Both the position numbers and the translations under genes were made by a program. From assembly GCA_022822375.1 (NCBI GenBank), contig JAJEBU010000126.1, positions 132,659 through 172,766 of the forward strand: a stretch of DNA of 40,108 bases, read 5' to 3'. The notes beneath the pieces were generated by a model. That model did not search any database. It saw only the letters and a list, made by a program, of their open reading frames with translations, and had not been told where the DNA came from. This document shows, one piece after another, positions 4,201-8,536 of the stretch (the stretch's first letter is position 1; every line of letters starts with the position of its first letter). Source of the DNA: Dehalococcoidia bacterium (GTDB lineage: Bacteria; Chloroflexota; Dehalococcoidia; Bin125).

Positions 4201-5226
4201 CTAGCTCGGGCTGCTTCCGCCCAGCGGATCGCGGTAACGCTCGAGGAACTCGATCATCAGCCGATTGACGTCTTCGGTGCCTTCTTGCTGGACCCAGTGG
4301 CCGCAGTCGGGCAGGTAGGTCAGCTCGAAGGGGCCGCTGAACAGATCGTCCATACCCTCGGTCAACTCCCGGCCGAGCGCGGTGTCCCGCTCTCCCCAGA
4401 GCAGCAGGGTCGGTGAGCTGATCTTTGCATAGCTGACCGCGGCGGGCGCGGGACCGAGCACGCTGTCCAACGCCTTGCCGAGTCCGACGAAGCGGCCCGC
4501 GATGCGAGCCCGCGACTCACCAGCACCTGCGCGAACGGCCGCTCGGTAGTAGTGCAGCGGACCGCTCAGCCCCTGACGGGCGGCGGCGCGGCGATACTCA
4601 TGGAGTACTTCCGGCGGGAAGGCGTCTTGGCGGGCGGAGTTCTGACGGATGATCCAGCCGACGCGTTCGTAGTCGTTGACCGCGAGCCATCGTTCGGGCG
4701 CTCTGGGAATCTGGAACAGGAACATGTACCAGGAACGGCCGATCTGGCGAATGTTGGGACGAGCGCCGAAGGCTTCGGCCATCCGCTCAGGGTGCGGAGC
4801 GTTCATCACAACCAGACGGTCCACGGAATCGGGATAGTCCATCGCAAAGCGCCAGGCGACGACGCCGCCCCAATCGTGTCCGACGATGACCGCCTTGACC
4901 CGATCGCAATGCTCGATCAGCCGCTGGACATCTTCTGTCAGCGTGTCAATGCGGTAGTCCTGGACGTCTGGCGGGCTCTCGGAGAGGTTGTAGCCGCGCA
5001 GGTCGGGCGCGACGACCCAATAGCCGGCAGCCGCGAGCGCGGGCATCTGCATTCGCCATGACCACCAGAACTCGGGGAACCCGTGCAACAAGATGACGAG
5101 CGGCGCGTCGTCACCGCCAACGGCGGAACGCATCTCGGCGTAGTGCAGTCGGACGCCGCCGGCGCCGTCGGCGAAGCGATGCGTCCATGCGCCGCGCGGT
5201 TGGTCTTCAGTTGAGGGATCGGCCAT
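4201..5226 (-). CDS. Alpha/beta hydrolase, epoxide-hydrolase-like
   Basis: This 341-residue protein is an alpha/beta hydrolase of the epoxide hydrolase and haloalkane dehalogenase group. It shows the oxyanion motif HGFPE (48-52), the nucleophile elbow VGHDWGG with Asp118, a pair of tyrosines in the cap (Y226/Y227) where epoxide hydrolases place the ring-opening Tyr, an acid candidate D281 in GERD, and the catalytic His310 in CGHW. An Asp nucleophile with cap Tyr favours epoxide hydrolysis, though the substrate is unknown. The start ATG overlaps by one base the stop of the upstream paralogue (TGATG), so the two are probably translationally coupled and co-expressed. No signal peptide is evident, so it should be cytoplasmic. 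Confidence 0.85.
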   Translation of the reverse strand: MADPSTEDQPRGAWTHRFADGAGGVRLHYAEMRSAVGGDDAPLVILLHGFPEFWWSWRMQMPALAAAGYWVVAPDLRGYNLSESPPDVQDYRIDTLTEDVQRLIEHCDRVKAVIVGHDWGGVVAWRFAMDYPDSVDRLVVMNAPHPERMAEAFGARPNIRQIGRSWYMFLFQIPRAPERWLAVNDYERVGWIIRQNSARQDAFPPEVLHEYRRAAARQGLSGPLHYYRAAVRAGAGESRARIAGRFVGLGKALDSVLGPAPAAVSYAKISSPTLLLWGERDTALGRELTEGMDDLFSGPFELTYLPDCGHWVQQEGTEDVNRLMIEFLERYRDPLGGSSPS

Positions 5227-6128
5227 CAGGACGCGGGCCCGGCCGTTGCGGCGGCTGGCGCGAGGAACTCGAGCATCGCCGCGGTGACCTGTGCGGGCTG
5301 CTCTTGCTGAACCCAGTGGCCGGCGTTGTCGATGATCACCTGTTGCAAGTCGTCGACGTACTCGGCTGCTTCTTCCATGAAGGGCAGACGCACCGCGCGG
5401 TCTTCGCGCCCCCAGATGAACTGCGTCGGACAGGTCACGCGGAGATTGCGGTCCGGCCAGGTCAGGAACCAGTTGGGCCAGTAGATGTTGCGGTAGTACC
5501 GCATCGCGGCCGAGAGCGCGCCCGGCTGTTTGAGCGCGTCGGCGAAGATGTCGATGTCCTCAGCGCTGAACGCGTCGTCGTCGGCTGCGACGCTCTGGAA
5601 GACACGACGGGTCGTCTCGTCAATGTCCGACCAGGACCGCCGCTCGGCCAGGCCCGGCACCTGCATCATCAGCGCATAGGTGTTGTTGGGGAAGTTGCGG
5701 CGACCCCAGTACCAGGAGCGGACGAGTGGGGCGTTCAGCACGATCAGGCGATCGCACGCGTTGGGATAATCGCGCGGAAACTGATGCGCGATCACGCCAC
5801 CCCAGTCGTGTCCGACGATGGTCGCCGATTGCTCGCCGAACGCGCGGATCAGGCCGCGCACATCCTTGGTCAGGTTCTTGATGTCGTAGCCGCGGCGGGG
5901 CTTGTCGGAGATGTTGTAGCCGCGCATGTCAGGCGCGACGACGCGGAAGCCGGCCTCGGCCAGCGGCGCGATCTGGTGCCGCCACGAGTACCAGTGCTCG
6001 GGGAACCCGTGCAGCAAGAGGACGAGCGGGCCCTCTCCCTGTGTGACGTAGTGGAGTCGGACGCCGTTGGTCTCGACGTGGTCGTGCTGCCAGCCAGAGC
6101 GATCGAAATCGAACTGATCAGTGCTCAT
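5226..6128 (-). CDS. Alpha/beta hydrolase, epoxide-hydrolase-like (paralogue)
   Basis: This 300-residue protein is a second alpha/beta hydrolase of the same family as its downstream neighbour. It carries HGFPE (40-44), the nucleophile elbow VGHDWGG with Asp108, cap tyrosines Y211/Y212, the acid candidate D243 in GRED and His271 in AGHW. The two proteins share the core motifs but differ in the cap and in the N-terminal segment, so they are divergent paralogues and may act on different epoxides or esters. It lies 36 bases downstream of the LysM/M23 gene on the same strand and overlaps the next hydrolase by one base. Epoxide hydrolase is the best guess; dehalogenase or esterase activity is not excluded. 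Confidence 0.85.
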   Translation of the reverse strand: MSTDQFDFDRSGWQHDHVETNGVRLHYVTQGEGPLVLLLHGFPEHWYSWRHQIAPLAEAGFRVVAPDMRGYNISDKPRRGYDIKNLTKDVRGLIRAFGEQSATIVGHDWGGVIAHQFPRDYPNACDRLIVLNAPLVRSWYWGRRNFPNNTYALMMQVPGLAERRSWSDIDETTRRVFQSVAADDDAFSAEDIDIFADALKQPGALSAAMRYYRNIYWPNWFLTWPDRNLRVTCPTQFIWGREDRAVRLPFMEEAAEYVDDLQQVIIDNAGHWVQQEQPAQVTAAMLEFLAPAAATAGPAS

Positions 6129-7548: not shown

Positions 7549-7577
7549 GTGACATCTTCCGTCGCTTGTGATACTAT
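7549..7577 (+). promoter_or_regulatory. Strong sigma-70-type promoter for the 7608 small ORF
   Basis: GTGACA (7549-7554) and TACTAT (7572-7577) are separated by 17 bases, and TGA just before the -10 gives an extended -10. This is the best promoter match in the window. Transcription should start near 7584, about 24 bases before the small ORF. The spacer between the M23 start and this promoter holds no gene. Confidence 0.75.
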
Positions 7578-7607
7578 GAGGACGTCGGGACGAGAGAGGA
7601 GGCGCTG

Positions 7608-7673
7608 ATGCGCAAGCTGAATATCCACCTCGTCTTTGGAGTCCTTCAAGTTGACAGGCCAGGCTCCCACTAG
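7608..7673 (+). CDS. 21-residue small ORF, possible leader peptide
   Basis: A 21-codon ORF begins MRKLNIHL, ends DRPGSH and stops at TAG (7671-7673). It has the strongest Shine-Dalgarno seen here, AGAGAGGAGG (7593-7602), five bases before ATG, and sits directly behind a strong promoter. Its stop codon lies in the loop of one hairpin, and an intrinsic terminator follows 18 bases later, just before the sirtuin gene. This arrangement is typical of a leader peptide that senses translation, but there is no run of one codon as in classic amino-acid attenuators; Leu and Val occur three times each. It may instead be an independent small protein or an arrest peptide. I know of no family match. Coding is well supported by signals, not by conservation. 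Confidence 0.6.
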   Translation: MRKLNIHLVFGVLQVDRPGSH

Positions 7674-7679
7674 GGAGCC
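7662..7679 (+). other. Perfect hairpin spanning the small ORF stop codon
   Basis: GGCTCCC (7662-7668) and GGGAGCC (7673-7679) form a perfect 7-bp stem with the loop ACTA. The stop codon TAG begins in this loop, so a ribosome finishing the small ORF would melt the stem. Confidence 0.75.
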
Positions 7680-7691
7680 AGATCCTCAGTC

Positions 7692-7716
7692 AAACGCCCC
7701 CGAGAGGGGGCGTTTT
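7692..7716 (+). terminator. Intrinsic terminator between the small ORF and the sirtuin gene
   Basis: AAACGCCCCC (7692-7701) pairs perfectly with GGGGGCGTTT (7706-7715) around a GAGA tetraloop and runs into TTTT. It ends 22 bases before the sirtuin ATG, so it would stop or attenuate transcription into that gene. Confidence 0.85.
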
Positions 7717-7738
7717 CGTATCTGCGGAACAGGCGCCC

Positions 7739-8536
7739 ATGACTGAATCGTCCGGCCAGCATCAGGAATCGATCGAGCGCGCCGCGGCCTTGCTGGCGCA
7801 GTCTCGATATTGCATCGCCCTGACCGGCGCGGGCATTTCGGCCGAATCGGGCATTCCGACCTTTCGCGGTAAGGACGGCCTCTGGACCAAGCACGGCGAG
7901 CCGCCGCTGAACCAGTACGAGCAGTTCTCCGCCGACCCCGCGCTGTGGTGGGAGAACGTCGCAGAACGCCGTCGCCACCCTGATGAGTTGACCGCCACGA
8001 TTGCCGAGGCGCAGCCCAATGACGCCCACTACGCCATGGCCGAGCTGGAGCGCATTGGCGTCCTGAAGCACATCATCACCCAGAACGTGGATGGCCTGCA
8101 CCGCGCCGCGGGCGCTGAGTCGCTCACCGAGATTCACGGCTGCACCAGCCTGCTGCGCTGCATTGAGTGCAACACGCGCTCGCCCTTTGACGAGCTGCCA
8201 GAGCTCTTCCCGCCGCGCTGCGATCAGTGCGGCGGCATCGTCAAGACCGACACCGTGATGTTCGGCGAGCCGATTCCGCCCGATTGCCTGCAACGCTGCT
8301 ACGAGGAGTCGTCGAAGGCAGACTGCGTGATCCTGGTGGGCACGACGGCGGTGGTCTCGCCGGCGGCGGACTTCGCCTTCGCCATCGGACAGCGCGGACA
8401 TCCGATGATCGAGGTCAATCTCGATCCCACGATCATCACCCAGTACTGCGCGGTCGCGATTCATGATCGCGCTGGCGAGTTGATGTCGCGGATCGCGGCC
8501 GAAGTGAAACGCATCCAGTCTGATCCCGCGTTCTGA
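7739..8536 (+). CDS. Sirtuin NAD-dependent protein deacylase
   Basis: This 265-residue cytoplasmic enzyme removes acyl groups from lysines using NAD. It shows the sirtuin sequence set: GAGIS (30-34) and FRG for NAD binding, TQNVDGLH (114-121), the catalytic His133 in IHG, and a four-cysteine zinc site (C141, C144, C161, C164). GTTAVVSPA replaces the more common GTSxxVxPA. Known bacterial sirtuins regulate acetyl-CoA synthetase by deacetylating its catalytic lysine, and an Acs-type gene lies at 22175, though not adjacent. The gene starts 22 bases after an intrinsic terminator, so its transcription probably depends on read-through or on another promoter. ACAGG upstream of the ATG is a weak ribosome binding site. 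Confidence 0.93.
   Translation: MTESSGQHQESIERAAALLAQSRYCIALTGAGISAESGIPTFRGKDGLWTKHGEPPLNQYEQFSADPALWWENVAERRRHPDELTATIAEAQPNDAHYAMAELERIGVLKHIITQNVDGLHRAAGAESLTEIHGCTSLLRCIECNTRSPFDELPELFPPRCDQCGGIVKTDTVMFGEPIPPDCLQRCYEESSKADCVILVGTTAVVSPAADFAFAIGQRGHPMIEVNLDPTIITQYCAVAIHDRAGELMSRIAAEVKRIQSDPAF

Follow-up and report, generated by a model that had tools for sequence, protein, structure and literature searches.

Several described systems combine a small open reading frame (ORF) with RNA structure. The arrest leaders TnaC, ErmCL/ErmBL, SecM and MifM have a short translated ORF with a strong Shine-Dalgarno sequence (SD), often before a gene, together with residues conserved just before the pause and an adjoining hairpin. 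In the trp, his and pyrBI/pyrE attenuators, a leader ORF is followed by a terminator-like stem before the gene; SgrS/SgrT, RNAIII/hld and SR1 are stand-alone RNAs with a promoter, a small ORF, a structured 3′ part and a terminator. The stimulatory hairpins of −1 frameshift signals start 6–8 nt after the critical codon, a spacing that places the stem at the mRNA entry. The element described here, which precedes a sirtuin gene, resembles each of these in part. It has the ORF, the SD, the conserved residues before a presumed pause and the hairpin of arrest leaders; the gene order of the attenuators, with one lineage preceding a PyrE-like gene as in pyrBI/pyrE attenuation; in its long forms, the stand-alone architecture of the dual-function RNAs; and a stem 6–8 nt after its critical codon. 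We place it, as a short form, in a family of translated leader RNAs that extends over the phylum and that we name the QVD leader.

Results

The window, the whole stretch of 40,108 nucleotides analyzed here, belongs to contig C120, part of a 2.7-Mb genome whose closest named relatives are metagenome assemblies of Dehalococcoidia (Chloroflexota). Its sirtuin gene (7739–8536, plus strand, as are all leader features below) encodes a CobB-type NAD-dependent deacylase (Pfam SIR2, E = 1.8e-45; NCBIfam NF001753, above cut-off) and begins with the ATG at 7739, downstream of a leader whose layout is real and conserved. An extended −10 promoter (GTGACA-17-TACTAT, with TG before the second hexamer) occupies 7549–7577; it has 9/12 matches, was the one site found by a promoter scan versus 0.0 expected in shuffles, and has equivalent hexamers in relatives. 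The original prediction had considered a separate sirtuin promoter after 7716, and the scan ahead of the sirtuin returned no sigma-70-like promoter besides 7549–7577. The SD AGAGGAGG (7595–7602), of which most members retain GGAGG, precedes a 21-codon ORF (7608–7673) that encodes MRKLNIHLVFGVLQVDRPGSH, shows protein-type codon conservation and is conserved in the genus. Within it lies the peptide core F-G-V-L-Q-V-D (7635–7655), delimited by codon conservation in 46 members, with the Asp codon at 7653–7655. Hairpin H1, with 7 bp (GGCTCCC-ACTA-GGGAGCC, 7662–7679), is supported by register and covariation; it starts at +9 nt, counted from the first nucleotide of the Asp codon, and, as read directly from the window, holds the TA of the TAG stop codon in its loop. 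The promoter, the ORF with its SD, and the hairpin with stop-codon bases in its loop had all been predicted as we found them.

The proposed terminator stood in part. The 10-bp GNRA-loop stem AAACGCCCCC-GAGA-GGGGGCGTTT (7692–7715), identified by sequence and folding and conserved in the genus, is indeed perfect, but its T-run is poor, with three Ts inside the stem, and a terminator scan calls none; it is best described as a weak intrinsic terminator, a stable stem with a weak T-run. Most relatives have TTGTCGTA or TTCTCATA as the T-run. The leader as a whole is more stably folded than shuffles (z = −2.7). The GCGC/GCGC stem proposed to enclose the start codon is missing in most relatives and is therefore probably a chance feature; we rejected it as a functional element. 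Elsewhere in the window, the minus strand carries two alpha/beta-hydrolase (epoxide-hydrolase-like) genes in tandem (4201–6128); they adjoin a LysM/M23-type peptidase gene, which diverges from the leader.

A search of related genomes, as originally proposed, found the ORF and both hairpins conserved by the sirtuin in the window's genus. The leader ORF occurs in 15/15 genus members. In 14 of them the assembly includes the sirtuin gene, and there the ORF is located upstream of it; in genus member G003 the ORF lies beside a sirtuin gene fragment. The pattern MRKLNIHL-x-[FY]-GVLQVD describes the start of the ORF in the window and the 14 other members. Mean majority identity across these 15 is 0.93 for codons 1–16, 0.97 for H1 and 0.91 for the terminator stem, whereas the upstream DNA has 0.61 and the beginning of the sirtuin gene 0.82. 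The sister genus (G017, locus L045) has a shorter ORF, MRKLNIHLVFGVLQVD, by a sirtuin about 81% identical, and an H1 of different sequence in the same place. Two same-family genomes (G016 and G019) possess the sirtuin, with no leader detected. The predicted link to the sirtuin was seen in two genera only. Elsewhere the module heads unrelated genes or stands alone; the leader module is not sirtuin-specific.

A peptide-core search from the window's leader gave the same module, [FYWL]-G-V-[LW]-Q-V-D followed by a hairpin, in distant genomes, and genome surveys covered Chloroflexota. In one order, other than that of the window, a peptide profile had matches in 21/81 genomes; most of these matches were inspected and are of QVD-leader type. 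A covariance model trained only on members from this order recovered the window and all genus loci tested. The final sequence model matched 85/393 genomes of the class and 17/18 genomes of one order in which the module often lies ahead of a PyrE-like gene; an earlier model with stricter filters matched 26/400 genomes across the phylum. Model R2 was built without base pairs, so its searches score sequence only, and it includes six sirtuin-type leaders, so its matches at such leaders are partly by construction. Some genomes contain several copies, up to five in G311. The most divergent members are putative homologs, assigned by the short motif and its register. Motif matches within DnaE (FGVFQVD, L106–L110), within an alcohol dehydrogenase gene (L092) and within coding sequence at L093, L098 and L101 were set aside as chance. 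Searches of plasmids (tblastn) and of viral contigs (two scans) gave no matches to the element.

The codons of the core show what is being conserved. Across 46 members, the G, V, V and D codons do not vary at positions 1 and 2, and Q changes once, to E; position 3 varies by up to 1.9 bits and is near saturation at both V codons. Because positions 1 and 2 are near-invariant and position 3 is free, the C-proximal part of the encoded peptide is under selection. The N-terminal half and the residues after Asp are variable among members, and the position following Asp is R, S, K, T, W or a stop, so no particular residue is required there. Most ORFs span about 13 to 30 codons. As in arrest leaders, then, a short ORF, whose translation we infer from the codon pattern and the SD, carries conserved C-proximal residues. 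The original statement that no codon of one amino acid is repeated was borne out: there is no codon run in MRKLNIHLVFGVLQVDRPGSH or in its relatives, and codon-run attenuation was rejected on that ground. Programmed −1 frameshifting was rejected as well, there being no slippery heptamer; the sequence is CAR GTN GAY in all but one of the 46 members.

Counted from the first nucleotide of the Asp codon, H1 starts at +9, +10 or +11 nt in 63/68 distinct members, which are not independent, since 15 come from the window's genus, and among which the H1 sequence differs between lineages. In the same 68 members the stop codon falls at +3 (5), +6 (39), +18 (15) and up to +66, the window being among those whose stop falls inside H1. 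Because the stop position varies and the H1 start is fixed, the conserved geometry is that of H1 to the Asp codon. H1 of other lineages occupies the same place with a different sequence, and covaries in another order. Given the ribosome footprint, the base of H1 would sit at the mRNA entry of a ribosome whose A or P site is occupied by Asp, and it is mainly for this reason that we infer a pause at the Asp codon; H1 is so placed, as in an arrest leader, in the 63 members above. The conserved peptide and the fixed hairpin distance together suggest that the peptide makes the ribosome pause there.

The family comprises long and short forms. In the long ones, H1 is followed by a covarying domain and a strong terminator; in one other order, 19/26 pairs of H1 and the downstream helices show double changes (0/500 shuffles), and a second long-form subtype has covarying helices of its own. 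Many members are stand-alone RNA genes, as a convergent gene lies downstream; these are ~300 nt long and end in their own terminator. Long forms combine, like dual-function RNAs, their own promoter and terminator with a translated ORF; the window form has no structured 3′ domain and its terminator is weak. After H1, loci L138, L142, L146, L149 and L151 share a block, CCTCAGGCTA-R-CCC ... GGG-AGA-GTCCTGAT, that forms a covarying helix with an asymmetric internal loop and a riboswitch-like look. Loci L099, L100 and L111–L113 (genus g279) have a highly conserved GGTGTTCCGCGGAACGGAGCA block, including an inverted repeat, between promoter and SD.

The genes downstream of the module (sirtuin, PyrE-like, amidase, pyruvate dehydrogenase E1, ABC ATPase and secreted proteins) share no obvious pathway. 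In genome G023, MRLHLRFGVLQVDS is encoded ahead of a pyruvate dehydrogenase E1-alpha gene, and a second copy, the short form L176 (G023:C165:288-343), precedes an aliphatic amidase gene, itself followed by an apparent AmiS/UreI-type channel gene. A short form precedes an ABC ATPase gene in the same-family genome G018, and short forms in G311 and G156 precede secreted-protein genes; those with no evident terminator lie about 90–110 nt before such genes. The G311 short forms L203, L204 and L205, which begin MKLNMLHGVWQVDW, MTVKLNILYGVWQVDC and MRRISFNKLYGVWQVDS, stand before secreted/lipoprotein-like genes, and two of the three follow an apparently duplicated upstream gene. The long form precedes an orotate phosphoribosyltransferase-like (PyrE-like) gene at L183, L186, L190, L192, L194, L195, L143 and L163; the terminator of this lineage lies about 10–30 nt ahead of the gene, and the arrangement is kept across several families of one order, which makes it the best lineage for testing cis regulation.

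Folding of 16 sirtuin leaders, free or with a ribosome parked on the Asp codon, gave terminator-stem pairing probabilities of 0.87–1.00, and no mutually exclusive antiterminator was found in either state. Because the stem folds with or without the parked ribosome, we found no RNA switch in these leaders and rejected an antiterminator switch. No hairpin clearly hiding the sirtuin SD was seen in the window. The U-tract is weak in sirtuin leaders, whereas the T-runs of most stand-alone members are strong; this difference suggests that transcription reads through constitutively into the sirtuin.

Discussion

We consider it probable that the window carries a pause-peptide leader of a phylum-wide kind, which heads the sirtuin by read-through. 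This reading draws on the conservation of the leader, selection on its peptide, the fixed H1 register, the lack of a structural antiterminator, and the reuse of the module before different genes and as a stand-alone unit. The promoter and strong SD would drive translation of the short QVD ORF. Once [FYWL]-G-V-[LW]-Q-V-D forms the end of the growing peptide, a pause of the ribosome is most likely, with the Asp codon occupying the A or P site and H1 lying against the mRNA entry. The window leader would form the 5′ end of the sirtuin transcription unit, the gene being reached by read-through of the leaky terminator stem at 7692–7715. The pause may then tune the transcript downstream by shielding or marking the 5′ portion of that transcript, and not through an RNA switch. 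Stand-alone members lack a cis target and may work in another way. A more speculative extension, which we hold only tentatively, is a phylum-wide and often stand-alone class of ribosome-parking RNAs, in which the nascent peptide would stall its own ribosome against the hairpin, the ribosome-bound RNA would be the working form, and the module would be reused as a 5′ leader, for example of the sirtuin.

The window element could instead be an independent small gene, giving an RNA of ~130 nt (~300 nt in other members) that acts through its peptide or in trans, with the sirtuin a mere neighbor expressed by leakage. That alternative, raised in the original prediction, is true of many members, in which the next gene downstream is convergent and the RNA ends in its own strong terminator; neighbors also vary by lineage, and the long forms have a covarying 3′ domain. 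However, where the neighbor is the sirtuin, a PyrE-like gene or a membrane-protein gene (g279), the terminator stem ends about 10–90 nt before the start codon and the neighbor is kept within the genus or across genera and families. The position of the terminator-less short forms before secreted-protein genes and the window form's missing 3′ domain also speak against it, and for the window we judge it rather unlikely.

Two regulatory alternatives to the pause-peptide leader have less in their favor. Classical translation-coupled attenuation, in which the ribosome's position on the leader would choose between terminator and antiterminator and so control the sirtuin, accounts for the arrangement, in which a leader ORF with a hairpin over its stop codon is followed by a terminator-like stem and then the gene. 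Yet it is very improbable, given the absence of a repeated codon, a stem probability of about 1 whether or not a ribosome sits at Asp, a weak T-run not called as a terminator, and a stop position not kept across the family. From the original proposal of attenuation with a possible ribosome-arrest mode, arrest in place of a codon run is retained, but switching of RNA structure is not. An arrest leader induced by a ligand, as in the erm, cat and TnaC systems, would sense a drug or metabolite and free the downstream ribosome-binding site; it would fit the short ORF, strong SD, conserved C-terminal residues and adjacent hairpin, and ErmBL reportedly stalls with Val-Asp at its end. With the sirtuin SD not clearly hidden by any hairpin and downstream genes that do not form one class of resistance or transport genes, we regard this, too, as highly unlikely.

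The pause-peptide reading explains the window layout without a sirtuin-specific regulator, and it offers an arrest motif that can be tested, G-V-x-Q-V-D followed by a hairpin at a distance of about 10 nt. The family itself, peptide plus RNA, is present in roughly one in five genomes of the class and spread over Chloroflexota, and is absent from the RNA and protein libraries searched: in Rfam 15 the window element fell below the gathering threshold everywhere, with only sub-threshold matches for its relatives in a permissive search, and Pfam and NCBIfam hold no entry matching the QVD peptide. Searches of an open-access library yielded nothing relevant on QVD peptide strings or on a sirtuin leader peptide, in line with the original remark that no described leader like this one was known upstream of a sirtuin, and we know of no arrest motif that matches G-V-x-Q-V-D.

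Each of the closest systems differs from the QVD leader in a definable way. Unlike the hairpins of arrest leaders, H1 is in register with an internal Asp codon rather than the stop, and the same core heads unrelated genes or none; the pause, moreover, is read here from sequence. The trp, his and pyrBI/pyrE attenuators differ in that the QVD leader has no codon run or antiterminator, its peptide sequence is itself conserved, and the window ORF's stop ends 18 nt before the terminator stem. Unlike a −1 frameshift signal, CAR GTN GAY is not an X XXY YYZ heptamer, and we noticed no conserved shifted frame. In contrast to SgrS/SgrT, RNAIII/hld and SR1, the QVD peptide is conserved mainly in its last 6–7 residues, and the window form has no structured 3′ part. 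We class the QVD leader as a variant of the leader-peptide or dual-function RNA and assign it to no named family.
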